DNA of 64,000 nucleotides, taken from Phyllobacterium sp. YR531 (GTDB lineage: Bacteria > Pseudomonadota > Alphaproteobacteria > Rhizobiales > Rhizobiaceae). The translations under genes were made by a program, and so were the position numbers. Numbering within the stretch: position 1 is the first letter of the stretch; each line of letters opens with the position of its first letter. This document shows, piece after piece, positions 30,061-45,298 of this stretch. Location: assembly GCF_000282595.1 (NCBI RefSeq), contig NZ_AKIZ01000003.1:62001-126000 (forward strand). The letters are read 5' to 3'. Below the pieces are notes generated by a model. The model searched no databases. It was not told the origin of the DNA and worked only from the letters and a program-made list of their open reading frames with translations.

Positions 30061-31041
30061 TCAATAGGCCGTGCCAAGTAGTTCTTTTGCGTTCTTGGAA
30101 TCGTAGAACTGATCCGGGTTAATGATCTTCTCCGGAATTTTATCGCCATTCGCGTAAGCGACTGCCGTGTCAAAAGCCTTAGGTCCGAAACGAGGATTAC
30201 ACTCGACGACCGCTGCAATCTTGCCGTCCACTACACCTTGCACAGCTTCTTTGCCGCCATCGATTGAAAGTACAAGAATATCCTTGCCTGGCACCTTGCC
30301 GGCAGCCTCAATCGCGGAAATCGCACCGATCGCCATTTCATCATTGTGGGCGTAGATCACGTCTGCATCCGGATGCGCCTGAAGCAGTGTTTCGGCAACC
30401 TGGCGCCCTTTATCACGAGCAAAATCACCCGTCTGCGACGCCAGTATTTTGAAATCAGAGTGTTTTGCAATCACATCATCAAAGCCCTTCTTGCGATCAT
30501 TTGCGGGCGATGATCCCGTGCTGCCTTCCAGCTCGATGATTTTGGTTTTTCCGTTGCCATTGGCCACGAGCCAGTCAGCGACCCGTTGACCTTCTTCAAT
30601 AAAGTCAGAGCCAATGAAGGTCACATAATCTTCACCCGCCTTCGCAAGCGAAGGATCAACACTACGGTCAAGCAGGATCACCGGAATACCGGCATTTTTC
30701 GCGGCCTTGATAGCCGGGATCAATGGCTTTTCCTCGCGCGGCGCCAAGAAAATGAGATCCACTCCCTGAGCGATCATCGAGTTTACGTCAGCGACCTGCT
30801 TGGCAGCAGAACTTGCAGCATCCGTATAGACGAGCTGCCAGCCACGTTTCTTGGCTTCTTCCTGCATGCTGGCGGTCTGCGCCAACCGCCATGGATTGTT
30901 GCTCTCAGTTTGAGCAAAGCCAACCTTGTATGTGTCTTTCTTTTTGAGCGGTGGTGACGCAGCAAATGCGCTGCCCGCAACCATTGTCGCGGCTAGTCCG
31001 ATAGCCGACGTCAATAACAGTGTGCGACGGGTAACATTCAT
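30061..31041 (-). CDS. Sugar ABC transporter substrate-binding protein (YtfQ-like)
   Basis: A 326-residue periplasmic protein with signal peptide MNVTRRTLLLTSAIGLAATM and cleavage after AFA. The mature sequence closely follows E. coli YtfQ: VGFAQTESNNPWRLAQTASM, VILLDRSVD, ELEGSTGSSPANDRKKGF, TGDFARDKG and YAHNDEMAIGAI. YtfQ binds galactofuranose, so a furanose-form hexose or arabinose is the leading candidate ligand. First gene of the operon that includes two permeases, galM and an oxidoreductase; divergent from a LacI-type regulator. Confidence 0.9.
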   Translation of the reverse strand: MNVTRRTLLLTSAIGLAATMVAGSAFAASPPLKKKDTYKVGFAQTESNNPWRLAQTASMQEEAKKRGWQLVYTDAASSAAKQVADVNSMIAQGVDLIFLAPREEKPLIPAIKAAKNAGIPVILLDRSVDPSLAKAGEDYVTFIGSDFIEEGQRVADWLVANGNGKTKIIELEGSTGSSPANDRKKGFDDVIAKHSDFKILASQTGDFARDKGRQVAETLLQAHPDADVIYAHNDEMAIGAISAIEAAGKVPGKDILVLSIDGGKEAVQGVVDGKIAAVVECNPRFGPKAFDTAVAYANGDKIPEKIINPDQFYDSKNAKELLGTAY

Positions 31042-31215
31042 TGAAATTTCCTCCCAGAAATTTAGAGCAAGTTTAAGCTCGTGGCGATCCCACTACAACG
31101 ATCATCGTCATTTATAAAAATTAGTCAATAATTATTTATGTTGATTAGTCGAACAATCTCCTCCTACTATCGGCACGTAGAATTTGATCCTGTTTATGCA
31201 GAGGCGGTGTTGCAG
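31042..31215. promoter_or_regulatory. Divergent control region, YtfQ-like operon / LacI regulator
   Basis: 174 AT-rich bases. ATTAGTCAATAAT (31120-31132) and ATTAGTCGAACAAT (31144-31157) are near-identical direct repeats 24 bases apart. The second differs by one base from ATTAGTCGATCAAT in the other sugar operon's control region at 8906-8919. Candidate regulator sites; no dyad of classical LacI form (central CG palindrome) stands out. Confidence 0.4.
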
Positions 31216-32346
31216 ATGAATAATACAGTGGAGAAAAAGACCACTGGAAAACCCGAGCGCGCAAACGATGCGAAACGGCGTAAACGCATTGGTAAACGCG
31301 TTACGATGACAGATATTGCACGCGTCGCTGGATGCTCTCAAGCGACAGTCTCTTTTGTTCTTAACAAGACGCCCGGCATCAAACTGGCCGCCGAGACGCG
31401 TGAGCGCGTTATTGAAGCAGCTCGTTCACTCGGTTATGCAGCTCCCAATTTTGCGCATCTCGATATAGTCAATGCATCTGCACCAACGACAGACGGGAAA
31501 ATAGGGTTTGTTGTCGACCAGTTGGCTACGAGCCCTGAGGCCGTCGTTGCCATAGAGGGTGCCCGTCAAGCCTCATGGAGTGCTGGCAATATCATTCTGG
31601 TCGCCCAAACGCTCAATGATCCCGAGATGGAACCGCGTACAATTCGGGCTCTTGCAGAACAGGGCATATCTGCTCTCATCTACATGGCAATCTTCACGCG
31701 CGAAGTAACGTTGCCTCAGGCCGTTTACGACCTTGATGTGCCGGTCATTCTGTTGAACTGCTACAGCACAGATCACGCATTTCCTGCAGTTGTCCCGAGT
31801 GAAATTGCAGGAGGGCAACATTCGACCCGCCATCTAATTCAGCACGGCCATCGCCGTATAGGTACGATCACTGGTGAACCTTGGATGGAAGCTGCAAAGG
31901 ATCGTTTGAAAGGCTATCGTCGCGCTCTGGCAACCGCTGACATTCCTTTCGATCCAACCTTGGTCATAGAAGGAGATTGGTCTGCAAGTGCGGGATACGA
32001 AGCGACAAAAAAACTACTCATGTTGAAAGAACGGCCAACAGCCATTTTTTGCCAGAACGACCGGACAGCGATTGGTTGCTATGAAGCGTTGAAGGAAGCC
32101 GGAATGCGTATTCCGGAAGATATTTCAGTCATTGGTTATGATGACGAAGAAATTTCCCGGCACCTTCATCCGCAACTGACAACCTCCGTTCTCCCGCATC
32201 GCGCTATGGGACGCTGGGCAATTGAACAGCTCGAAAGTCCCATAAACTTCACGGGGGCACGCCATTCGATCACCAAGCTGGAATGTCCATTGGTTGAGCG
32301 TCTTTCAGTAAGTGCATGCACTGATCCGATAGCGCGTTTCGCGTAA
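31216..32346 (+). CDS. LacI-family transcriptional regulator
   Basis: A regulator of about 376 residues. The HTH reads VTMTDIARVAGCSQATVSFVLNKTPGIKLAAETRERVIEAARSLGYAAPN, followed by a periplasmic-binding-protein-like sensor domain (IGFVVDQLATSPEAVVAIEGARQASWSAGN, then FCQNDRTAIGCYEALKEAGMRIPEDISVIGYDDEE). The start is uncertain: the ATG at 31216 gives a basic 30-residue lead before the HTH, one at 31306 lies right at it, and the open frame begins at 31138. Divergent from the YtfQ-like operon and its probable repressor. Ends five bases before the convergent dctD gene's stop. Confidence 0.87.
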   Translation: MNNTVEKKTTGKPERANDAKRRKRIGKRVTMTDIARVAGCSQATVSFVLNKTPGIKLAAETRERVIEAARSLGYAAPNFAHLDIVNASAPTTDGKIGFVVDQLATSPEAVVAIEGARQASWSAGNIILVAQTLNDPEMEPRTIRALAEQGISALIYMAIFTREVTLPQAVYDLDVPVILLNCYSTDHAFPAVVPSEIAGGQHSTRHLIQHGHRRIGTITGEPWMEAAKDRLKGYRRALATADIPFDPTLVIEGDWSASAGYEATKKLLMLKERPTAIFCQNDRTAIGCYEALKEAGMRIPEDISVIGYDDEEISRHLHPQLTTSVLPHRAMGRWAIEQLESPINFTGARHSITKLECPLVERLSVSACTDPIARFA

Positions 32347-32351
32347 TATTC

Positions 32352-33701
32352 TTACTTGTCTGCAACATAGTCTGAACGATCGATGCCATGGCGCTGCAGT
32401 TTGTCGTAAAAGGTTTTGCGGGGAATCCCCAGCGCTTCGATTGTCGAACGCACATCCCCGTTGGTTGCCGACAGTGCACCACGGATAAGCTTTGCTTCAT
32501 ATTGTTCCATAGCTTTTGGCAAGCTGGACGTATCATTTAACGGGTTTTCATCAGGCTGCGTTATCTCGACTGTTTGTAACCCCAAAGCTGTACGTTCGGC
32601 AAAATGCGACAACTCCCGCACGTTACCTGGCCAGTCATGCTCAACAAGATAGGCGCGGAGTGCTGCCGTAATCGCAGGTGGCTCCGATTTGAACCGTGCG
32701 GCGGCACGGTGCAAAAAATGGGTGAACAGGAGCATTATGTCATCGCGGCGCTCGCGGAGGGGAGGGATTGAAACAGTAACAACGTTAAGCCGGTAAAAAA
32801 GATCTTCCCTAAAATTGGCACGCTGCTCCGCGCTGCCCAAGTCAACCTTCGCTGCAGCAACGACACGCAGATCTACTTGCCGGTGATCGTTGGTTCCCAG
32901 CGGTGTAATTTCGCGAGTCTCCAAAACCCGAAGAAGCTTTACCTGTGTGGAAAGCGGCATGCTCTCGATTTCATCGAGGAACAAGGTGCCACCACTTGCA
33001 TGCTCGATCCGGCCTACACGCTTCTTTTGAGCACCTGTAAATGCACCGGCCTCATGCCCGAAAAGCTCACTTTCGATGACAGTTTCAGGCAATGCTCCAC
33101 AATTAAGGGCAACAAAGTTTCCTGTTTTGCGCCTGCTCCACTCATGCAAGAGACCAGCCACCACTTCTTTGCCTGTACCTGTCTCACCGGCAATCAAAAC
33201 ATCTACATCGGCGCTTGCCACGTGGCGTAATGTTTTCCGAAGATTCTGCATGACAGGCGTCTGACCGATCAGCGGCAAGGTTTCGTCAGAGCTCTCCATT
33301 GCCAGCCTCAACTCGCGATTTTCCATGACAAGCCGACGTTTTTCCAACGCTCGCAATATGCTTTGTACGAGTCGATCCGCCGGATAAGGCTTGGCGATAA
33401 AGTCGTAGGCACCTTTATGGATCGCTTCCACGGCCATATCGATATCGCCGTGTCCGGTGATAAGAATGATGGGCAAATCCGAGTCTGTTTCTCGTAAACG
33501 GCGGAAAAATTCGAGCCCGTCAATGTGGGGCATCCTGACATCGGTAACGACCACACCCGGAAACTCCGGCGTTAAAGCCCGCAACGCAGCGATCGCATCT
33601 GAAAATGGGTGTACCGTAAAACCTGCAAGCTCGAGCGTTTGGCAATTTGCAGTACGAAGATCGTTATCGTCATCAACAAAGGCAACATGATTTACATCCA
33701 T
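32352..33701 (-). CDS. dctD: C4-dicarboxylate response regulator DctD (NtrC family)
   Basis: A 449-residue sigma-54 activator. The receiver domain has the phosphoacceptor Asp54 in [16 protein letters not shown]; the AAA+ domain has Walker A GETGTGKE, the sigma-54-contact loop GAFTGA and Walker [13 protein letters not shown]; the C-terminus is a Fis-type HTH ([22 protein letters not shown]). DctD activates dctA from upstream sites when phosphorylated by DctB. It lies two bases after dctB on the same strand, divergent from dctA whose promoter matches sigma-54 consensus. Confidence 0.93.
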
Positions 33702-33703
33702 TT

Positions 33704-35560
33704 TCAGACCACCTTTCTCAGATGCACTGTAAACTCCGCTCCAGCAGAACTGCTTTCAACTTCAATGTGCCCTCCATATTCGGCAACAATGTCATGGCAT
33801 ATCACCAACCCAAGCCCCAATCCCCGGTCTTTCGATGTATTGAACGGTGTGAAAAGCATCTGCATGATCGAATCCGGTATTCCCGGTCCGTTATCAGCAA
33901 TGGTCAACCGCACTTCCTCATCATCAATCGCGCAACGCACGCTGATCCTGCTCGCGGGACCACCCTCTGTAGCCTCAAGGGCGTTCTGCATCAGGTTGAT
34001 CAAAACCTGCTCAAGCCGAATACGATTGCCATAAACCTTGACATCGGCAGGCGGCATTTCGGTCAGTATTTGTCCCGCACGCTGGCGAAATCTGCTCCCT
34101 AAAAGCAGCATTGCGCCTTCAATGATGTCTACCACATTAACTGGCCCTGACTCTCCCGTGCCTTTGCGTGAAAACGTTCTAAGCTCGTCGGTAATACTTC
34201 CTATCCGCTCCGTAAGACCAGCGATCGTCTTGAGATTATCCCTTACCGATGCAACTTGATGCCGATCCAAAAACGTTGCGGCATTATCCGCATAGGATCG
34301 AATTGCGGCGACAGGCTGATTGATCTCATGGGCGACACCTGCAGTCACCTGACCAAGGATTGCCAAGCGGTTGGCCTGCACAAGCTCCAGTTGCACCGTC
34401 TGAAGTTTTGTTTCCGTTTTTTGCCTCTCTTCGGCTTGCATAACCAGTTCCGCATGCGCTGTGCTTAGATCGGCGGTACGCGCCTCGACACGACGCTCAA
34501 GTTCAAGCCTTGCCGCTTCCTGTTCGCGCGCGCGCCGCAGAGCCAATCCACGGCGGCGCAGGAAAAAAGCCGTCAGTGATAATAGCGGAGCGAGAAAGAG
34601 CAACGTCACAACCTGTGCGTTACGGACTGACTCTGTTACTGCTGGCGTCGCCGGTGTCAGTGACTGAAGTTTCCAGCTTGTGGTGGGGACTTGGGTTTGA
34701 ACCCTCACGAATTCCCTTCTAGACGTCGCACCCGGCAAACGTGCCCTGACGATATCCGGTTCCGCCTGTGAGGTTGAGGGAACAATATCCAATGGCGTCA
34801 GCGACGCACCACCGAATTGCAGACTTTCGCGAAGCGGACCCATGCGATCAGCCGGAATTACGCCCTCGGTCATAAACCGCCAATCGGGAAAACTGGTAAC
34901 AAGCACGATGCCACGCTGATCAACTACAAATGTTGGATCGCTGTTACGACGCCAGTCAGCCTCAATCTCATCGAATTCCAGTTTGACGACGATGACGCCA
35001 AGAACCCCAGTTGGACCGTCAATGCGTCTTGAAATGTAGAGGCCGGGCCGCTTGCTCACAGTTCCAAGTGCATAATGTTCCGCACTGCCGTTTCTTACCG
35101 CACGCGTATAATATGGCCGGAAACTGTAATTGGTTCCTACGAAGCTTATCGGTTCATTCCAGTTGCTTGCTGCTATGGCCAAACCACCTGCATCAAGCAG
35201 ATAGATAACGGCCGAGCCTGTTCCCCCAATAAGACTTTCCAATTTGCGATTAAGAAGCTGCAGCACGCTCTCGCTTCGTGTTGAGAGGGCACTTATGACA
35301 TCGCGATCCTGGGAGAGAACAAATGGAATTGATCTCTGCTTTTCGAGAACCGTACGCAGAAGCACGGCATTGAGTTCGGCGGTATTTCGGGCCCGATCAG
35401 TGACGGTCTGGTATCCCCGCTGGCGCCCGTAATCTGCAGCTGCGAAAAGCGCTGCAATGATAATTACCGCCGCTACAGCAACCAATGCGACATTGATTGC
35501 CCAACCAGATCGAAGGGCTCGATAGGATGTTCGGGGCAAATTTTCTGTTTCTTCTCCCAT
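33704..35560 (-). CDS. dctB: C4-dicarboxylate sensor histidine kinase DctB
   Basis: A 618-residue membrane sensor. A first membrane segment ([22 protein letters not shown]) and a second near residue 310 ([17 protein letters not shown]) frame a periplasmic double-PAS sensor region with [28 protein letters not shown] and [12 protein letters not shown] coiled-coil-like linker leads to the HisKA domain with [23 protein letters not shown] (phospho-His) and an ATPase domain with [10 protein letters not shown] and [16 protein letters not shown]. It senses succinate, fumarate or malate outside and phosphorylates DctD. Confidence 0.94.
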
Positions 35561-35567
35561 ACGTTAA

Positions 35568-35620
35568 GTGTGCATATATCCGCACAAAACTCAACATGAT
35601 TGAGCGGCATACCGCACAAA
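35568..35620. promoter_or_regulatory. Candidate DctD upstream activating sites
   Basis: TGTGC (35569-35573) and GCACA (35582-35586) form a dyad, and the nonamer CCGCACAAA occurs twice (35580-35588 and 35612-35620), 32 bases or three helical turns apart. They lie 75-125 bases upstream of the sigma-54 promoter, where DctD dimers bind tandemly in rhizobia. Binding is inferred. Confidence 0.6.
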
Positions 35621-35693
35621 CAGTCGCCTTTCAAATCTGACACTATATAAAATAGTAAAGTATTTTCAATAGCTTAAAAAGAAAAATATCAAC

Positions 35694-35709
35694 TGGCACA
35701 CGCCTTGCA
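35694..35709 (+). promoter_or_regulatory. Sigma-54 promoter of dctA
   Basis: TGGCAC (35694-35699), five bases, then TTGCA (35705-35709): a full match to the -24/-12 consensus TGGCAC-N5-TTGC(A/T). It lies about 100 bases upstream of the dctA start and downstream of the candidate DctD sites. Confidence 0.92.
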
Positions 35710-35807
35710 AATACCGGAGCAAAGGACGGTAGGCCCGCCCTTGCAACTGAGCCTGGGAGGCTAACAGGTTGAACCTGTCAGACGAGGCTCGCATCATGGA
35801 GGAAGTC

Positions 35808-37142
35808 ATGAGTCCGGTGACAATAAATACAAGCACTGCTAGCCCGCAGCCATCAAAGAAAATTCCAATCTACAGCCATCTCTACTTTCAGGTGCTTGTT
35901 GCGATAGCCATTGGTATCGCGCTTGGACATTACTATCCCGATATTGGTACCAGCATGAAGCCACTCGGCGATGCTTTCATCAAGCTGGTGAAAATGATCA
36001 TCGCTCCAGTAATCTTTCTTACAGTATCTACCGGCATCGCCGGAATGAGCGATCTCAAAAAAGTTGGCAGGGTCGCCGGCAAGGCGATGATCTACTTCCT
36101 GACATTTTCTACACTCGCTTTGATTGTCGGGCTCGTCGTTGCCAATGTGGTGCAGCCAGGCGCCGGTATGAACATTGATCCCGCATCACTCGATCCGAAA
36201 GCTGTGGCGACCTATACACAACAGGCGCATGAACAGAGCATCATCGGTTTCCTGAACAACATCATTCCGACTACGATTGTCGGCGCTTTTGCCTCGGGCG
36301 ATATCCTGCAGGTCCTGTTCTTCTCCGTATTGTTCGGCCTATCATTGGCTATGGTCGGCGAAAAGGCTGAACCTGTCACCAACTTCCTGCTGCTGCTTTC
36401 AGCCCCGATCTTCAAGTTGGTCGCCATTTTGATGAAGGCCGCACCTATCGGTGCATTTGGAGCGATGGCATTCACCATTGGTAAGTATGGTATCGGTTCC
36501 GTTGCTAATTTGATCATGTTGATTGGCACATTCTATCTGACGTCTCTGCTGTTCGTCCTTATCATTCTTGGTGCCGTCGCCTGGTATAACGGCTTTTCCA
36601 TCTTAGCGCTCATCCGTTACATTAAGGAAGAATTGTTGCTTGTGCTTGGCACAAGCTCTTCAGAGGCGGCGTTGCCGACCCTGATGGCAAAAATGGAAAA
36701 GGCAGGCTGCAAGAAATCTGTCGTAGGTCTTGTCATCCCAACCGGCTATTCGTTCAATCTCGATGGCACGAATATCTATATGACGTTGGCGGCTCTGTTC
36801 ATTGCACAGGCAACAAATATTGATCTTAGCCTGTCGGACCAAGTTCTTCTTCTGCTTGTAGCAATGTTAAGCTCCAAGGGTGCCGCAGGTATCACTGGTG
36901 CCGGCTTTATTACTCTTGCAGCAACGCTGTCTGTCGTACCCGCCGTCCCTGTTGCAGGTATGGCGTTGATCCTCGGTATCGACCGCTTCATGTCCGAATG
37001 CCGTGCATTGACCAATCTTGTTGGCAATGCCGTAGCAACAATTGTTGTAGCCCGTTGGGAAGGCGAGCTGGACAAGGACAAGTTGGCTCAGGCTCTCAAT
37101 GGCGATTTTGCCGATGACGACGCCTTGGCTTTGGCGAGCTGA
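35808..37142 (+). CDS. dctA: C4-dicarboxylate:cation symporter DctA
   Basis: A 444-residue inner-membrane transporter of the dicarboxylate/amino acid:cation symporter (DAACS) family that imports succinate, fumarate and malate. [23 protein letters not shown] starts the first segment; the Ser-rich re-entrant loop [17 protein letters not shown] and the motif [23 protein letters not shown], which line the substrate site, are intact. The ATG at 35808 has GGAGGAAG upstream; ATG 35796 lies within that RBS. Expressed from the sigma-54 promoter and controlled by DctBD. An exported lyase gene follows 87 bases downstream on the same strand. Confidence 0.95.
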
Positions 37143-37172
37143 TCATTCTGATCGCAAATCTAACAGACAGTT

Positions 37173-37213
37173 CTGCGGAGCACCAAATTTTCTGTAGTCT
37201 GGTGTCTCCGCAG
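37173..37213 (+). promoter_or_regulatory. Stem-loop between dctA and the exported lyase gene
   Basis: CTGCGGAG-CACCA (37173-37185) pairs with TGGTG-CTCCGCAG (37200-37213) with one bulged T, a 13-bp stem and 14-base loop. It ends five bases before the RBS GGGAGG (37219-37224) of the lyase. No T-run follows, so it looks like an attenuating or processing element within a dctA-lyase transcript rather than a full terminator. Confidence 0.6.
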
Positions 37214-37229
37214 ACATTGGGAGGTATTC

Positions 37230-38726
37230 ATGAAAAAGATTCTTTACGCACTGACATTCGCTGCGGCGATGAATAGTGGTGTAGTACTTGCTGCAGAGAA
37301 AACCCAAAGGGATGAATTCTTCTGGTTGGGGATGATCAATAAGGCAACTATTGTCATTAACTCCGAGGAAGGTCTGCTCGATAAAGCTCTCACTCCCAAG
37401 ATCGCTGCCGGCCTTGAAAAGGTGCTAGTGGACGGCAATGCCGCGGGAGGAAAGCGGCCATCAACCGTAATATCGTTCGAACCATTACTTATTGATGCGG
37501 CGGGCCCGGAAGTTACGTTGATCCATGCCGGCCGCTCAAGCCAGGATATGCATGCTACATTCAGGGCAGCCATCCTGCGGGATGATCTGCTGAGACTCGC
37601 GCGCCAGTTGGATAAGACAACGAGTGTTATGGTTGACCTCGCAGAGCGTCACGTCGATACGATTGTACCCAACTATACCAATGGCGTCGCAGCACAGCCA
37701 AATAGTTTCGGGCATTACCTGCTTGGTCATGCTGCAGGTCTTGAACGTGATGCCCAGCGCATCAGGGAAACCTATGCCCGGATTGACAGAAGCCCTATGG
37801 GTACAACTGTGCTCAATGGAACGAGCTGGCCCCTTAATCGAGCCCGCATGGCTGATTATTTGGGTTTCTCTGGCATCGTTGACAACGCCTATGATGCCTC
37901 GCAAATCTCGTCGGTAGATGAACCGGTAGAAGTAGGAGCGATTGTTACAAGCATAGCGCTCCATACGGGACAGTTCATCGAAGATATCATGACGCAGTAC
38001 GCGCAGCCGCGCCCGTGGATATTGTTGCAGGAGGGTGGAAACAACACTTATGTATCCAGTGCAATGCCTCAAAAGCGTAACCCTGGAATTCTGAATTCCA
38101 CGAGACAGGATGCGTCAACGGCTGTAACTTTGGCCTTGGGACCTGTCATCCAGGCGCACAACATCACCCCCGGCATGTCTGACCCAAAAGACGTGGACGC
38201 CAATACCGAGGTTGTCGAAAGCGCGATCAAAGCTTTGAAGGGTTGGGAGAAAATACTCGGTTCACTTGTCATAGATCCAGACCGCTCGCTGGAAGAACTG
38301 AACAGCGATTGGACCGCCTCGCAAGAACTGGCCGATGTTTTGATGCGTAAATACAAACTGCCATTCCGGGTCGGACATCACTTCGCGTCTGAGGTTGTAG
38401 ACTTCGCCAAATCGAAGAATATCAAACCACTCGATTTTCCATATGCGGAAGCAAAAAAGATATACTCCGAAGCGGTCAAGGGTACTGACTTTGCAACAGA
38501 GCTACCTATGAGCGAAGAAGAGTTTCGCTCAACACTCGATCCTGTCGCAATCGTGAGAAACCGAGCTACCGTCGGAGGTCCACAGCCAAAAGAAATGGCG
38601 CGTATGATTAAGGCTGCCAAGGACAAAATCGCGAATCAGGATGCTTGGGTGAATGATAAGCAACAAGTAATCTCAACCGCCCTAGAGCGCTTGGATAACG
38701 ATTTCAACAAACTGTCGGCGAAATAG
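37230..38726 (+). CDS. Exported argininosuccinate-lyase-like enzyme (fumarase/aspartase superfamily)
   Basis: A 498-residue protein. Residues 1-22 (MKKILYALTFAAAMNSGVVL) form a clear Sec signal peptide with likely cleavage after VLA/LAA, so the enzyme should act in the periplasm. The rest is the all-helical superfamily fold; the mobile catalytic loop VSSAMPQKRNPG (275-286) matches the GSSxMPxKxNP signature with Ser276. Family members release fumarate from a succinyl-C-N bond. Two conserved ASL motifs differ: GRSRND is GRSSQD (101-106), and the T-H pair that bears the catalytic His is YTN (Asn151), so the substrate is unlikely to be argininosuccinate. It is next to dctA, which would import the fumarate. 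Strong RBS GGGAGG. Genuine catalysis is likely but not proven. Confidence 0.82.
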   Translation: MKKILYALTFAAAMNSGVVLAAEKTQRDEFFWLGMINKATIVINSEEGLLDKALTPKIAAGLEKVLVDGNAAGGKRPSTVISFEPLLIDAAGPEVTLIHAGRSSQDMHATFRAAILRDDLLRLARQLDKTTSVMVDLAERHVDTIVPNYTNGVAAQPNSFGHYLLGHAAGLERDAQRIRETYARIDRSPMGTTVLNGTSWPLNRARMADYLGFSGIVDNAYDASQISSVDEPVEVGAIVTSIALHTGQFIEDIMTQYAQPRPWILLQEGGNNTYVSSAMPQKRNPGILNSTRQDASTAVTLALGPVIQAHNITPGMSDPKDVDANTEVVESAIKALKGWEKILGSLVIDPDRSLEELNSDWTASQELADVLMRKYKLPFRVGHHFASEVVDFAKSKNIKPLDFPYAEAKKIYSEAVKGTDFATELPMSEEEFRSTLDPVAIVRNRATVGGPQPKEMARMIKAAKDKIANQDAWVNDKQQVISTALERLDNDFNKLSAK

Positions 38727-38756
38727 CTACGCGAACTTAAGGAATAAGACCCGTTC

Positions 38757-38813
38757 GTAAACAGGATTGCTGTTTACATCGAAATCAGGGAGGGCGCTTT
38801 CGTCCTCCTTGAT
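38757..38813 (+). terminator. Tandem stem-loops downstream of the lyase gene
   Basis: GTAAACA (38757-38763) pairs with TGTTTAC (38771-38777), and ATCAGGGAGG (38784-38793) with CCTCCTTGAT (38804-38813, one G-U). The second is GC-rich and is followed by CTATTTG. They probably end the dctA-lyase transcript. The rest of 38727-38911 shows no gene. Confidence 0.6.
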
Positions 38814-38911
38814 CTATTTGATAGATAGGTCTGATACAGATTATAACAGTTTTATTGATGCCGCTTTTACTGCACCCTTTGAGCATTCTCCGTTGTGAAT
38901 GAATCAAAGGT

Positions 38912-40102
38912 ATGTCTATGGAAAAACGGACGGGGCAGCCGGGCCGAAATTGGCTATATGTCTTCATCGTCTTTATTGCCGGTATCGTCGCGGCCATGCA
39001 AGTTATCAAGCCCTCGATAGCCGCTCCTTTCCTGCAAACCTCCCTCGCAATTGATCTGCCTTCAGTTGGATGGTTAATCTCAGTATTCGCATTGTTGGGA
39101 GTGGTGGGTGGCATTCCAGCGGGGGCATTTGTAAGCGCCATGGGTGACCGCCGCATATTGTTGTGCGGCCTTTCGGCAATCACATTGGCTGCTGGTGTTG
39201 GCGCTGCAGCACCAAGTTTTGAACTGCTCCTTGCGACACGTATTATCGAGGGTATGGGCTTCACTCTGGTTATTGTAGCTGGACCCGCGCTGATCACGCG
39301 ATTAGCACCGGAGAATAGCAAATCAATGGCGTTCGGATTGTGGAGTTGCTTTATGCCAACCGGTATAGCTCTCTCGATGTTATGCGGGCCATTGTTGCCA
39401 AATTGGCAAGCGGTATGGGGTACCAGTGCCGTAACAGTCGCTGCAGCTTTGATAATTTCCATGATTGTTTTGCCGCCGTCTCAAAAAGGCTCTTTTTCAT
39501 GGAAAGAACTTCGCGCCGATACACGGGCAACATTCAGATCGAGCGGCCCTATCATATTGGCCATAACCTTTGCCCTCTACAGTCTGCAGTTTTTCACCAT
39601 TTTCAGTTTTCTGCCGGTCTTGCTGACGGAGCGCATGTCCGTTTCGTTGCAGACAGCCGGTATGCTGAGCGCGGCAGCAACAGCAATGAACATTTTGGGC
39701 AACCTTACCGCAGGGTTTCTTATCGGGCAGGGTTTGCAGCGATGGAAACTTATTGCTGTTGCAACGCTGGTCATGGGCATGTGCAGCATTGGCATACTGC
39801 TGCCCATTTTGCCAAATTCAGCTGTATTGGCGTTATGCATGCTGTTTTCTGCTGTCGGCGGCTTGATCCCCGCCACACTGCTCGCCACGGCTCCAGTGCT
39901 TTCTTCGGAACCTCGGCTGGCCCCATACACTGTCGGTCTTGTCATGCAGGGCAGCAATCTTGGCCAGGTTGTCGGGCCAATCGCTGTCGGCAGTGTGATC
40001 AACGCATTTGGTTGGTCGTCAGTCGTGGGTATCTCGGTACTGGCCGCAGCACTCTGCGTTGGTGCGTCTGTACTGCTGCGGCAAGTCCTTTGCACTAAGT
40101 GA
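38912..40102 (+). CDS. MFS transporter
   Basis: A 396-residue protein with 12 predicted membrane segments, a central cytoplasmic loop (SQKGSFSWKELRADTRATFRS) and the MFS loop 2-3 motif in modified form (GAFVSAMGDRRILLCG). Its overall pattern is like CynX/NimT-type transporters of organic anions. Start at ATG 38912 or 38918. It is monocistronic, follows the lyase gene by 185 bases with terminators between, and overlaps the 3' end of the convergent rhaK by eight bases. Substrate unknown; a link to rhamnose or to the dct locus is possible but not supported by operon structure. Confidence 0.82.
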   Translation: MSMEKRTGQPGRNWLYVFIVFIAGIVAAMQVIKPSIAAPFLQTSLAIDLPSVGWLISVFALLGVVGGIPAGAFVSAMGDRRILLCGLSAITLAAGVGAAAPSFELLLATRIIEGMGFTLVIVAGPALITRLAPENSKSMAFGLWSCFMPTGIALSMLCGPLLPNWQAVWGTSAVTVAAALIISMIVLPPSQKGSFSWKELRADTRATFRSSGPIILAITFALYSLQFFTIFSFLPVLLTERMSVSLQTAGMLSAAATAMNILGNLTAGFLIGQGLQRWKLIAVATLVMGMCSIGILLPILPNSAVLALCMLFSAVGGLIPATLLATAPVLSSEPRLAPYTVGLVMQGSNLGQVVGPIAVGSVINAFGWSSVVGISVLAAALCVGASVLLRQVLCTK

Positions 40103-41456
40103 TGTTGTCCCACCAGTGTTTTGCATAAAGATCAAAATCCGGACCCAGCGGGAATATTGTTTCGCCACCAGACTGCGAAGGAAATAATGTACCCGCCAGC
40201 AGCGCTGCCCCAAGACTCGTACCGGTTGAGCCCTCAGTAGCGATGACTTCACGTGTGGTGAGCGACCGCAACGCGGAAAGATAAATCCAATTGCGGGCAA
40301 ATGGCCCCTCAACGATCGTCGGGCCGGACGCACCTATCAGGCGGAGGCTGGTTTCGGTCATCATCGCAGCATACAGGGAAGCAGCAGCATACCGTTCCGG
40401 CGCTGCCCTTGGCTCACCATTAATCCAAACTGCCTGCCGGTCCGGGAAAGGGCCCGAACCTTGAACGATGCTGGGGAGGACCATAATCTGGTCGGCCATA
40501 ACCCGTGCAAGCGTTGCAGCATCTGGAGCAGCAGAATTGCCGAGCGTTAGCTGGTCGAATTCCCTGCCTCCCATAAAGCGTGCTGATGGAACGGCCTTGC
40601 CGTAGGCATCGACGTTTGCCAAGGTATCGCGTGCCGGATCAAGCCCATCAAGCGCACCTCCGGCCGCAAATGCCACTACCCATGTGCCCGTGGAAATCAC
40701 GGAAAAAGGGGCGCTCCGCGTCATGAGGTGTGGAAGCAATGAGGCGTTCGAATCGTGAATGCCGCAATAAACCTGAACCGCACTATCAACACCAATTCGC
40801 GCTGCCAACTGTGGCAAAAGTCCACCGATAGCGTCAAATGCTGAAGCGATCGGCGCAAGCAATGGTCGCAGTTCAAGCGTATCGACAAGACTAGAATATT
40901 CGCCTGTTTGGGGATTCCACAGATCAGTATGGCAACCCAGAGAAGTAACCTCGTTTCTGGCAATTCCTGTCAATAGCCAAACCCAGTATTGTGCGTAGGT
41001 CACGATTGTTTTTACATTGGCAAATTCAGTCGGGAATTGCGTTTTCTGATAATGGATTTGTGCGCCGACATTCAGTCCACCAGATTGCAGTGGAGAATGC
41101 GTTTCGGAAAAACTTGGACGAAGTGCAGCATAGGCTAAGCGCACCTCTTCAGGATAGATGTACTCATAGTCGATCACCGGCATTGCAAGTCCCTGCTCAT
41201 CCAGCAGGACTGCAGCAGCGCCATGGGCGGTGACTGAGATAGCGTCAAAACCGGGCGCAGCGGCAAATTCAGTTAATGCATCAATACAAAACGTCCAAAG
41301 AGCTCCAACATCGTAGTGCGGGTATAGACCGTTCTTCAAAACTTTGTTCGGCGTACTACGTCGTGCAATTTCCATACCCGTATTCGTGTCAACAACAACC
41401 ACCTTTGCATTGGTCTTGCCGATATCCAGAACTGCCACACGATGGACGGCACTCAT
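40095..41456 (-). CDS. rhaK: L-rhamnose-pathway sugar kinase RhaK (FGGY family)
   Basis: A 453-residue FGGY-type kinase. [16 protein letters not shown] is the phosphate-binding N-terminal motif, [13 protein letters not shown] holds the catalytic Asp, and the second ATPase lobe has [15 protein letters not shown] and [15 protein letters not shown]. It is the last gene of the rhaRSTPQUK order described in Rhizobium leguminosarum, where RhaK is also needed for ABC-mediated uptake. The ATG at 41456 overlaps the rhaU stop (ATGA). It phosphorylates rhamnose or rhamnulose before the RhaD aldolase step. Its 3' end overlaps the MFS gene. Confidence 0.9.
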
Positions 41457-41776
41457 GGTAACTGGAACACGCAAACAAGTTCGGTTTGTACGGGCGAGTT
41501 ATCCGGGTTGGTTACCATGATATCAGCCATGTAGCCCCACCATTTCTTCATAACGGGATGCTCCGCGAGCGTCTGCATTTTATGATCTGCAGGTCGGCTC
41601 AACATCCCAAAAAGAGTATTGGTAGACCGGTCGAGATGAATTGAATACTCCTTGACACCGGCCCCACGCAGGACAGCCACCAGCTCCGGCCATATCTCCA
41701 GATGACGGCGCTGATACTCATCTTCCATACCCGGATTGAGCGTCATCGTGAACGCATGTTTCTCAACTGGACTCAC
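41453..41776 (-). CDS. rhaU: L-rhamnose mutarotase
   Basis: A 107-residue small dimeric alpha/beta-barrel enzyme (RhaM/RhaU family) that interconverts rhamnose anomers. [30 protein letters not shown] contains the active-site His in [10 protein letters not shown], followed by [16 protein letters not shown], and the WW pair in [13 protein letters not shown]. Both ends overlap neighbouring genes by four bases, so it is part of a tightly coupled operon with rhaQ before and rhaK after. Confidence 0.93.
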
Positions 41777-42774
41777 GATGCTCTACCATATCTGAAACGC
41801 CGGATAAGGATTGGCAAGGTGATTGTGGCAATCAGCAACAATCCGATAAAGATCGACATGACGATCCCGGGCACGTTCAGCAGGCCAAGGCCAAATGTAA
41901 CTAGCCCCATTACAAATCCCGCAATAACAACGCCTCCAACACGGCCGGAACCACCAAGAATTGAGATGCCGCCAAGAACAACCATTGTTACGACTTCCAG
42001 CTCCCAGCCCTGCGCAATGGACGGCCGTGTAGAGCCCAGGCGGGAAGTCAGGCAAACGGCGGCAATTCCAGACATCAGACCGGTCAACATAAACAGTATG
42101 AATTTGATACGCTCTACGTGGATACCAGAAAACCGTGCTGCAAATTCATTATTGCCTATTGCGTAAATGCGGCGGCCAAAATTCGTTGCATGCAGCAAAA
42201 CTGCAAAAATACAAGCTGAAACCGCGAACAGGACAAACTCAAAGGAAATAACCCAGAAAACATACCCTTGTCCGAAATAAGCGAATGACGCGGGATATCC
42301 ACCGTAGGCTTTGTCACCCAAAACAATATAAGAAATACCTCGAAACAAACTCATCGTGCCAATCGTAACGACGATCGAAGGAAGGCGAAGGCCTGCAACG
42401 AGAATGGCATTTACTGTACCGCATCCAAGCCCAACACCGATGCCAATCAAGACAATGCCGAATGTGCCGACACCCGTCTGGGCGGCGGCTCCCATTGCCG
42501 TCGACGCAAGTGCAATAATGGCAGCAACAGAAAGATCTATTTCACCGGCAATGATCAACAGTGCCATTGCAAAAGCTATAAGTGCCTTCTCGGTGAAATT
42601 GAAAGTGGCGTCAGAAAGGTTCCACGCATTCAAAAAGTACGGTGATGCAAGACTGTTGGCGATAAAGATCAGTACAGCAACACAGAGTAAGAAGGTTTCC
42701 CAGCTCGCAAACAAGCGCGATGCGGATGTACCAAGCTGATCGGGAATATGACGCTTTTCCGACACTGTGCTCAT
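41773..42774 (-). CDS. rhaQ: L-rhamnose ABC transporter permease RhaQ
   Basis: A 333-residue RbsC-type permease with about nine hydrophobic segments. [22 protein letters not shown] is the family core motif, and [24 protein letters not shown] the ATPase-coupling loop. With RhaP it forms the membrane channel for L-rhamnose. Overlaps rhaP upstream and rhaU downstream by four bases each. Confidence 0.9.
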
Positions 42775-43772
42775 ACCACCACCTCGATCTGTTCCGATGC
42801 GCCGCGATCCCGCAGGATGATCCGCCCGCGTCGACGTTCTTGCCGTGCGTTAAAAATAACTGCTGCTATGATTACCGCCCCTGAAATCGCCATTTGCGAA
42901 AAAGGTGAAATGTTGATGACTGGCAGGGCATTCTTGATGACACCAAGAAACAAGGCACCAAGAACAGCACCTGCGACTGAGCCTATGCCTCCCAAGGTGG
43001 AAATCCCGCCAATTACACAGGCAGCAACACTATCAAGCTCGAAGCCGGCAGCAATATCTACATAGGCGACGGCATACCGGGAAACCCAAAGATAGCCGCA
43101 TAACCCGGCCAGTGTACCGGAAATGACAAATGCGAAGAACCGTGTCCGCCCTACGTCGATACCAGCATAAACTGCTGCAGTCGGATTCCCGCCCGACGCG
43201 TATATCGCACGTCCAAGAAATGTACGTGACATAACAAGATACATCACGGTGACGATGATGATAGCCGCCCAGCCGAGAACCGGCAGCCCAAGAAACAGAT
43301 GGCGCGGTGCCTGAAGGAAAGGTTCAGTCATTTGATGCGCATTAACCCAAGCACCCCCGGATAGAACAAATGCCATGCCTCGATAGATTGTTAGCGTGCC
43401 AAGCGTAACCACGATTGAGGGAATGTTGAGCTTCCAGACAAAGAGGCCATTGATCGCTCCCAGTATTGCACCAATGAAGAGGGCAACAAGGATAATGGCT
43501 GGCAACGGCACATCTGGGTAGGTCGCGTTCAGCATACCGACAATCATGCCGGTAAAGGCAACATTTGCTGCAACCGACAAATCGATGGACTTGGTCAGAA
43601 TAACGGTCATCTGCCCCAGTGCCAGAATGATCAGAATTGAGCTGTCGTTAAAGATGTTTGCCAGATTGCCGGGCTTGGCAAATCCCGGTGCGCGTGTGGA
43701 AAAGACGGCAAGGAGGATTGCAATGATAATAACCAGCAACATCTCCCGGAATCTGAAGATCAGTTTGATCAT
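42771..43772 (-). CDS. rhaP: L-rhamnose ABC transporter permease RhaP
   Basis: A 333-residue RbsC-type permease. TKSIDLSVAANVAFTGMIVGML corresponds to the conserved core motif, and ASGGNPTAAVYAGIDVGRTRFFAF is the coupling loop. The order ATPase-RhaP-RhaQ follows the R. leguminosarum operon. Its ATG overlaps the rhaT stop. Confidence 0.9.
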   Translation of the reverse strand: MIKLIFRFREMLLVIIIAILLAVFSTRAPGFAKPGNLANIFNDSSILIILALGQMTVILTKSIDLSVAANVAFTGMIVGMLNATYPDVPLPAIILVALFIGAILGAINGLFVWKLNIPSIVVTLGTLTIYRGMAFVLSGGAWVNAHQMTEPFLQAPRHLFLGLPVLGWAAIIIVTVMYLVMSRTFLGRAIYASGGNPTAAVYAGIDVGRTRFFAFVISGTLAGLCGYLWVSRYAVAYVDIAAGFELDSVAACVIGGISTLGGIGSVAGAVLGALFLGVIKNALPVINISPFSQMAISGAVIIAAVIFNARQERRRGRIILRDRGASEQIEVVV

Positions 43773-45298
43773 GACTTGCTCGCATTGCCAGTTGCCGCTC
43801 GAACCAAGGTTTCGGCGCTTAGTGTTTCTCGTTCGTAGATGCCCGCTGACAGACCCTCGCGCATGACGAGTACCCGATCCGACATGCCCATGATTTCGGG
43901 TAGTTCGGAGGAAACCATAATGATGCTGAGACCTTCACCCGCCAGTTCGCTGATGAAGGCGTGGACAGCAGCTTTTGATCCAATATCAATGCCCTTGGTC
44001 GGCTCATCAAGAATAAGAATATTAGGCTGTGTCGCCAGCCATTTGCCAATGACCACTTTTTGTTGGTTGCCACCCGACAATGTTCCAACAGGAACTGAGA
44101 GTGCCGCAGCACGCAGATCGAACCGTTCCGCATATTTGCGAGCCAACGCGAATTCTTCTGCAGCGCGCAAAAACCCGGAGCGTGACGTGCGCGTCAAAGA
44201 GGGTAGGGAGATGTTCTGGTAAATTGGTAACTGCAGCACTGCGCCATGGCGTCCCCGCTCTTCGGGAACATAAACGATGCCGGCGCTGATCGCTTCTCCG
44301 GGACTCCCTATTGCGATCTCTTTACCGTTCAGCCTCACCTTGCCACCGGTTGGTTTGGTGACACCAAACAACGATTGGCAAAGCTCCGAGCGGCCAGCCC
44401 CTACAAGACCGTAGATCCCTAAAATTTCACCTTTCCTCAGTTCAAAAGATATATCTCGAAACTCTGTGGGATGGGTGTAGCTCTCGACCGCGAATACGGT
44501 TTCGCCCAAAGCGATATCCACTTTGGGGAAGGCATGTTCAACAGAACGTCCAACCATAAGCTTGACGATCTCGTCTTGGCCCACCTCTGCAAGCTCACCG
44601 CTGCCGACGGCTTTCCCATCACGAAACACCGCATAATGGTCGGCAATTTCGTAGACCTCATCAAACTTGTGACTAATGAAAAGGATCGCCTTACCGTTTG
44701 TCTTCAGCCGGTTGATTATCTGGAAGAGGTCATCAACTTCCTTACGCGATAAAGCCGCAGTCGGCTCGTCCATAATGACTATACGTGCATCGACTGACAG
44801 TGCGCGGGCAATTGCAACAAGATGACGCTGCGCAATTGATAAGTCCTTGAGACGAATACGCGGGTCGATATTGCTTTCCAGGGAATGCAACAACGCAAGA
44901 GCCCGCGCATTAACAGCCTTCCAATTTACCAATCCAAATCGTGACTTTGGCGCATGACCCAGGAAAATGTTTTCAGCAACTGACAATTCATCGAAAAGTA
45001 CGGTTTCTTGATGGATCGCAGTCACGCCGGCGTCTATGGCATCTTGTGCATTGGCGAATACAGTTGGATTGCCGTCGACCAAGATTTCACCTTCGTCACA
45101 GGCATAAATGCCTGTGAGAATTTTGACGAGTGTCGATTTCCCCGCACCGTTCTCACCAATAAGAGCGGTAACCTTACCGGGATACAGGGTAATGTCGACG
45201 TTATTCAACGCTTTGACACCGGGAAACGACTTCGAAATCCCACGCATCTCCAGAAGCGGCATCTCAGGTGACTGCTCTAGCGCAACAGTTTGGGTCAT
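43769..45298 (-). CDS. rhaT: L-rhamnose ABC transporter ATP-binding protein RhaT
   Basis: A 509-residue two-domain sugar ATPase (RbsA type). The first half has GENGAGKST and VIMDEPTAALSRKE; the second has GLVGAGRSE, signature LSGGNQQKVVIGKWLA and ILILDEPTKGIDIGSKAA. The deviating second P-loop is usual in this class. In the rhizobial locus the name rhaT refers to this ATPase, not to the E. coli RhaT symporter. It follows rhaS after a stem-loop. Confidence 0.93.
   Translation of the reverse strand: MTQTVALEQSPEMPLLEMRGISKSFPGVKALNNVDITLYPGKVTALIGENGAGKSTLVKILTGIYACDEGEILVDGNPTVFANAQDAIDAGVTAIHQETVLFDELSVAENIFLGHAPKSRFGLVNWKAVNARALALLHSLESNIDPRIRLKDLSIAQRHLVAIARALSVDARIVIMDEPTAALSRKEVDDLFQIINRLKTNGKAILFISHKFDEVYEIADHYAVFRDGKAVGSGELAEVGQDEIVKLMVGRSVEHAFPKVDIALGETVFAVESYTHPTEFRDISFELRKGEILGIYGLVGAGRSELCQSLFGVTKPTGGKVRLNGKEIAIGSPGEAISAGIVYVPEERGRHGAVLQLPIYQNISLPSLTRTSRSGFLRAAEEFALARKYAERFDLRAAALSVPVGTLSGGNQQKVVIGKWLATQPNILILDEPTKGIDIGSKAAVHAFISELAGEGLSIIMVSSELPEIMGMSDRVLVMREGLSAGIYERETLSAETLVRAATGNASKS

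Follow-up and report, generated by a model that had tools for sequence, protein, structure and literature searches.

The window analysed in this work, a stretch of 64,000 nucleotides from Phyllobacterium sp. YR531 (contig NZ_AKIZ01000003.1, positions 62,001 to 126,000), contains the genes dctB, dctD and dctA of a C4-dicarboxylate uptake system and, behind dctA, a gene coding for a lyase of the argininosuccinate lyase (ASL)/aspartase/fumarase superfamily with a predicted signal peptide (Table 1). The original prediction for this DNA had placed the lyase gene just after dctA, downstream of a consensus sigma-54 promoter and with dctBD opposite, and the arrangement was borne out by the open reading frame (ORF) coordinates, by a signal-peptide rule and by a perfect promoter site at 35694: the dctA stop (37142) and the lyase start (37230) are 87 bp apart, and dctB and dctD are on the other strand. 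This promoter site is the sole perfect consensus match in the 64-kb window; sites with at most one mismatch number three for 3.6 expected and are not above chance. The ORF list gives a TTG start for dctA at 35769, and the ATG at 35808 has, by eye, the better ribosome site. At an E-value of 0.001 the DctA protein matched dctA alone in the source genome. The energy of the hairpin at 37173..37213 was equalled by none of 200 shuffles, and a similar dctA-lyase hairpin is present in the sister locus L044. Terminator-like hairpins in the scan numbered 7 for a shuffle mean of 4.3, which is not clearly above chance.

Table 1. Features of the dctBDA-lyase locus in window coordinates.
Feature	Position	Strand	Basis
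dctD, sigma-54-dependent response regulator	32352..33701	-	ORF; NtrC-type family matches
dctB, sensor histidine kinase	33704..35560	-	ORF; histidine kinase family matches
Sigma-54 promoter site TGGCAC-N5-TTGCA, sequence TGGCACACGCCTTGCA	35694..35709	+	zero mismatches to consensus
dctA, C4-dicarboxylate importer	35808..37142	+	NF002461, 708.8 bits, cut-off 513
Strong hairpin without T-run, dctA-lyase gap	37173..37213	+	-29.5 kcal/mol, z -3.39
Lyase ribosome site GGGAGG	37219-37224	+	directly after the dctA-lyase hairpin
Predicted exported lyase, ASL/aspartase/fumarase superfamily, 498 aa	37230..38726	+	PF00206 99.4 bits, ASL_C2 38.8 bits
Predicted Sec-type signal peptide, residues 1-21	37230..37292	+	simple signal-peptide rule; N-terminus MKKILYALTFAAAMNSGVVLA/AEK
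GRSSQD motif, residues 101-106	37530..37547	+	invariant in 90/90 members
T150-N151, at the T-H place of ASL	37677..37682	+	invariant in 90/90 members
Catalytic loop SSAMPQKRNP, residues 276-285	38055..38084	+	Ser277, Lys282, Asn284 invariant in 90/90
Terminator-like hairpin 3' of lyase, weak T-run	38784..38813	+	hairpin scan

Family, predicted export and active site of the lyase

The lyase passed the gathering score of Lyase_1 (99.4 bits, cut-off 27), with the SS.MP.K.N loop present. Its best NCBIfam match was the argH profile TIGR00838, yet the score of 194.7 bits stayed below the cut-off of 279.5, whereas the two ArgH proteins of the source genome reached 612.6 and 518.6 bits; the second of these, besides the main ArgH, is cytosolic and encoded at G000:C36:65134-66222 (L003). 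The AlphaFold model (mean pLDDT 85.7) has the fold of the ASL superfamily, and the structural comparison called for by the original prediction gave as its nearest solved structure the EDDS (ethylenediaminedisuccinate) lyase, with a TM score of 0.82, followed by ASL and delta crystallin. EDDS lyase was also the nearest solved structure by sequence (3.3e-40, and 2.5e-47 with a profile). Judged by sequence and modelled fold, the lyase is a member of the superfamily, and its argH score sets it apart from ArgH.

The evidence for export comes from a simple signal-peptide rule and from cysteine content, with 46 ASL-like controls, over 91 loci made up of the best 80 of 344 relatives from a genome scan, ten plasmid loci and the window, some of them near-copies. 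The rule was passed by 83 of the 91 loci at the first start chosen and by 90 with any start, against 1/46 controls; the one failing locus, L101, has by eye a signal peptide farther upstream. The mature part is free of cysteine in 87 of the 91 loci and in none of the 46 controls, each of which has at least one; elsewhere, single cysteines occur in L035, L068 and L098, and six in L039. This scarcity fits the oxidising periplasm. Sec-dependent export to the periplasm, as originally proposed, is well supported by both counts and is very probable as a prediction.

The limits of the subfamily are sharp. Among 274 plasmid records matching the lyase, 14 have 64-74% identity and the next best has 32%. 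In a 39-row tree, whose bootstrap was not settled, the 18 exported members formed a single clade (100/100) on a long branch. For the motif count, L039, whose match lies in two pieces and is probably frameshifted, was left out (n = 90), and L043 was left out of alignment A1 because of a stop within the matched stretch; L151, L155, L156 and L166, of doubtful start or strand, were left out of the control alignment (42 controls). All 90 exported members have GRSSQD and T150-N151 where all 42 controls have GRSRND and T-H, and the loop SSAMPQK.NP is invariant, with Ser277, Lys282 and Asn284 kept throughout. Since these three residues are invariant, a catalytically dead enzyme is unlikely. The substrate residues of EDDS lyase, given in the available part of PMC12363623 as R112, N113, Q159, N288, D290 and Y320, were compared with the window lyase: N288 alone is kept, and R112/N113/Q159/D290/Y320 align to Ser104/Gln105/Asn151/Gly286/Met316. 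The altered GRSRND and T-H motifs and the lost EDDS-lyase residues make argininosuccinate or EDDS an unlikely substrate. The two motif changes noticed at the outset are thus real and invariant, and the view of a complete catalytic loop beside a changed substrate pocket holds well on the 90/90 motifs and the residue comparison. By its sequences, this exported group is a sharply bounded and nearly cysteine-free subfamily of the ASL superfamily, with an active site of its own.

The gene is patchy in distribution. It was found in 4 of 20 members of the genus, including the source genome, and in 99 further genomes from the family and order no lyase match exceeded about 31% identity. Two adjacent exported-lyase genes were seen in each of L086 (L086:6001-7443) and L089, from related Rhodospirillales assemblies. 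The plasmid copies L039, with its match in two pieces, and L043, with its internal stop (Caballeronia and Pseudoroseomonas), look broken, which suggests decay of the gene in places. The top-ranked open-licence PMC literature yielded no account of an exported superfamily member. Some binding proteins carry the name argininosuccinate lyase. Three argininosuccinate lyases listed as putative Tat substrates detected in the periplasm, in the part of an Achromobacter proteome available (PMC11533796), were not counted, being possible annotation errors; the A. xylosoxidans member L123 is without a twin-arginine start.

We found also a second exported clade, clade B, with 43-47% identity to the window lyase and with GRSRQD in place of GRSSQD. 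Of 151 genomes sampled from the A. xylosoxidans family, 48 have one clade or the other: the window's clade is present in 33 and clade B in 17, with two genomes having both. In the L069 family the numbers are 5 and 2 among 150 genomes. Among 34 window-clade stretches fetched from the two samples, 33 have an identity of at least 60% and retain GRSSQD, Y-T-N and the loop; of this group of 33, 31 satisfy the signal rule and 31 are cysteine-free; the last stretch, L251, is a partial match (58%) with the motifs kept and two cysteines. All of the 18 fetched loci of clade B satisfy the signal rule and have GRSRQD, Y-T-N and SS.MPQK, and 16 are cysteine-free. A cysK-like gene lies directly 5' of the clade-B lyase in L243, L244, L245 and L247, four related genomes; tested in L247, it scored 386.5 bits (cut-off 350.95) and lies 169 bp before the lyase.

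Linkage to dctA and origin of the arrangement

A dctA gene is near the lyase in 7 of the 80 database loci, in about four lineages. The flanks of L044, L052, L060, L069 and L084 contain a full DctA match (5/80); in L092 and L100, where the contig is cut short, its end codes for a DctA C-terminus directly before the lyase. The tandem dctA-lyase order occurs in the window, L044, L069, L092 and L100, that is, in two unrelated lineages, one of them betaproteobacterial (L069, L092, L100), and in L069 the lyase ATG comes a few bases past the dctA stop. The lyase follows dctBD in L052 and L060; L084 is a weak case, with dctA about 4 kb off, on the opposite strand and behind an ABC set. A base rate of 0.28 dctA per Mb (10 genomes) over 0.87 Mb of flank gives an expectation of about 0.24 chance matches, a rough figure in which dctA copies of at least about 45% identity are counted and loci are treated as independent. 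Counted by lineage, the link exceeds this expectation, and without the window's sister three lineages are left, for a rough P of 0.002. The dctA link is real and recurrent, and it is rare. The coupling to DctA put forward in the original prediction did not hold as a rule, with dctA near so few loci; it is supported in this lineage, where the T-run terminator after dctA is missing and the dctBDA-lyase unit is kept in a sister genome, and the tandem pair recurs in the betaproteobacterial lineage. Because most members stand without dctA, the coupling is lineage-specific wiring.

A sigma-54 promoter of the lyase's own was considered and rejected: among the 91 upstream stretches (up to 400 bases, at most one mismatch) a single site was found, and it falls inside the dctA of L044. 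In this sister locus a sigma-54 site precedes dctA, and in L052 and L060 a near-consensus site lies before the divergent dctA, not before the lyase.

The genus relatives suggest how the gene came to the dct locus. An FGGY kinase gene adjoins dctA in 9 of the 11 relatives with dctA fetched, and in the window this kinase lies 3' of the lyase-bearing insert. Ten of the 11 have no lyase behind dctA, and all ten have there a GC-rich hairpin, followed by a clear T-run in eight and by a poor one in L132 and L133. In the window and in the sister genome G001 this T-run hairpin is missing, and the lyase follows another hairpin, without a T-run. The FGGY kinase of G001 is on a different contig from dctBDA-lyase, which indicates that the four genes sit elsewhere as a unit.

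In the window (30061-45298) dctBDA is embedded in an apparent sugar ABC cluster, whose genes for a binding protein and a LacI-type regulator lie to one side and whose FGGY kinase, ATPase and two permease genes lie to the other. An MFS transporter gene (38912-40102) separates the lyase from the kinase, and the genes downstream of the lyase in L044 are different ones. Conserved neighbours were tried as a guide to the substrate by calling and clustering the genes around the 91 loci, and nothing recurs widely beyond the dct cases. Two gene sets recur on a smaller scale: 5 Bosea-type loci share a TRAP set, separated from the lyase by a methyltransferase gene, and 6 betaproteobacterial loci, related to one another, share a sensor-regulator-MFS set; DctM precedes the lyase in L071, TctC-type binding proteins are scattered over 32 of the 91 loci, and Tannase, sulfatase and ring-hydroxylase genes adjoin some members.

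Proposed reaction and competing explanations

Superfamily lyases form fumarate via a carbanion held by the loop. We propose, with evenly balanced confidence, that the protein is a cofactor-free, Sec-exported periplasmic scavenger lyase that releases fumarate and that, in this lineage, has been joined to the dctA unit; fumarate release taken by itself is likely. The loop serine would abstract a proton next to a carboxylate group of the substrate, an N- or S-succinyl compound, and cleavage of its C-N or C-S bond would set fumarate free in the periplasm. In this lineage the lyase gene would have become part of the dctA transcription unit, downstream of the DctBD/sigma-54 promoter, and would be co-transcribed with dctA, so that fumarate would arise where DctB senses it and DctA removes it. 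At equilibrium the reactions of superfamily lyases lie on the side of the succinyl compound (Kc 0.011 for ASL and 0.0068 for adenylosuccinate lyase, in the accessible part of PMC9706529), and removal of fumarate would pull such an unfavourable reaction. Pull by DctA and sensing by DctB would explain why the gene is well placed in a dct locus, and a pull of the DctA type would equally explain a stand-alone enzyme wherever some dicarboxylate carrier exists.

Several observations weigh against this proposal. Of the 80 database loci, 73 have no dctA in the available flank, which extends about 6 kb to either side in only 61 of the 80, and among 52 further stretches from the two family samples dctA was found only at the already known L069, itself without a sigma-54 site by the pattern used. 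Two of the four lyase-bearing genus members (G010 and G016) carry the gene away from dctA, and in the window the strong hairpin separates the two genes. The catalytic loop has low confidence in the model (residues 274-282 below 50), as has the signal peptide region. Superfamily products other than fumarate also occur, as with CMLE and XcbC. An exported cycloisomerase or elimination enzyme acting on another acid, beside dctA for other reasons or by chance, would suit the many loci without dctA, the Tannase, sulfatase and ring-hydroxylase neighbours, and the SSQD motif, which we take to be like the first motif of CMLE and of adenylosuccinate lyase. We consider it unlikely, since the lyase scored 46.7 bits with the CMLE profile (cut-off 355.75) and 52.5 with purB (326.2), and since dctA is nearby in about four lineages for the roughly 0.24 matches expected. 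An ordinary argininosuccinate lyase, the name given to the subfamily in 6 of its 14 plasmid records and also the best NCBIfam match, is next to untenable: the argH score is below the cut-off that both ArgH proteins of the genome exceed, and the motifs (90/90), the signal peptide, the lack of cysteine and the separate clade (100/100) all differ.

Within the proposed fumarate-releasing scavenger, two kinds of substrate compete. Cleavage of a C-N bond in a natural aminopolycarboxylate, an opine-like compound or an N-succinyl amino acid, as first suggested, suits EDDS lyase as nearest relative by sequence and fold, and we hold it as a tentative possibility; five of the six substrate residues of that enzyme are replaced, going by the part of its description available, and the lyase neighbourhoods of the 91 loci show no recurrent gene of a chelator or N-succinyl pathway. 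Cleavage of a C-S bond, with mercaptosuccinate or succinated thiols giving fumarate and sulphide or a thiol, is a rather slim possibility that comes from clade B. The clade-B lyase of L247 (43% identity) is, by map position, probably MIM_c16970 of Advenella mimigardefordensis: on the map of genome G424, anchored by dnaK and groL, the exported lyase lies 17 kb and the best prpB-like gene 9 kb from the places predicted from published locus tags, and of four superfamily matches the lyase alone falls in the predicted MIM_c16970 region, although this prpB-like gene scores under its cut-off and there are two further prpB-like matches in other places. In the available excerpts of PMC5373536 (Table 3), MIM_c16970 was 6.4-fold up on mercaptosuccinate versus succinate and 3.5-fold versus dithiodipropionate; if the identity is right, this induction makes S-succinyl substrates a rival of N-succinyl ones. 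The cysK gene before the lyase of L247 and three relatives points the same way, as do the S-succino lyase known in the same superfamily (PMC9706529, in part) and, in the same excerpts of PMC5373536, the reported formation of fumarate from mercaptosuccinate by sulphide elimination in a Rhodopseudomonas strain. Against it, the lead concerns the clade with GRSRQD, not the window's GRSSQD, and no sulphur gene adjoins the window lyase. The excerpts also report many stress and transport proteins rising in the same gel, and name the dioxygenase Msdo as the key enzyme, whose deletion alone restricts growth of Advenella on mercaptosuccinate, so that the lyase is insufficient there. That both clades together form a widespread periplasmic family cleaving S-succinyl compounds, with DctA-type import pulling the equilibrium, is more speculative still. 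Were it true, thiol acids and fumarate-damaged thiols would be sources of carbon and sulphur without prior entry into the cell.

Comparison with known systems

Many Proteobacteria carry this gene, often under the name argininosuccinate lyase; its product is very probably exported, which makes a role in arginine synthesis unlikely. If fumarate is released in the periplasm, the enzyme would represent a new way for cells to exploit chelators, opine-like compounds or succinated thiols outside the cell, with the importer pulling. ArgH shares the fold and the catalytic loop, but the window lyase is below the argH cut-off, lacks GRSRND and T-H, is cysteine-free and is predicted to be exported. The EDDS lyase of Chelativorans sp. 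BNC1 (PDB 6g3d, 6g3i, 6rx8) is closer in kind, with the loop SS.MPQK.NP in common and T-Gln for T-Asn, a threonine followed by an amide residue in both; identity is about 25-28%, its solved chain can be aligned with the window enzyme only from the start of the mature part on, GRSRND stands where the window lyase has GRSSQD, and five of the six substrate residues listed in the available description differ. The S-(2-succino) lyase 2SL is likewise a superfamily member other than ArgH; according to the accessible part of PMC9706529, with which the comparison is by description only, it frees fumarate from a scavenged succinyl compound and acts alongside cytosolic acetylation and deacetylation steps of yxe. 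The dct genes of the window resemble the rhizobial DctBD-DctA system, with divergent dctBD and a sigma-54-driven dctA, and they differ from those of the genus relatives in that the gene of a predicted exported enzyme lies behind dctA in place of a terminator.

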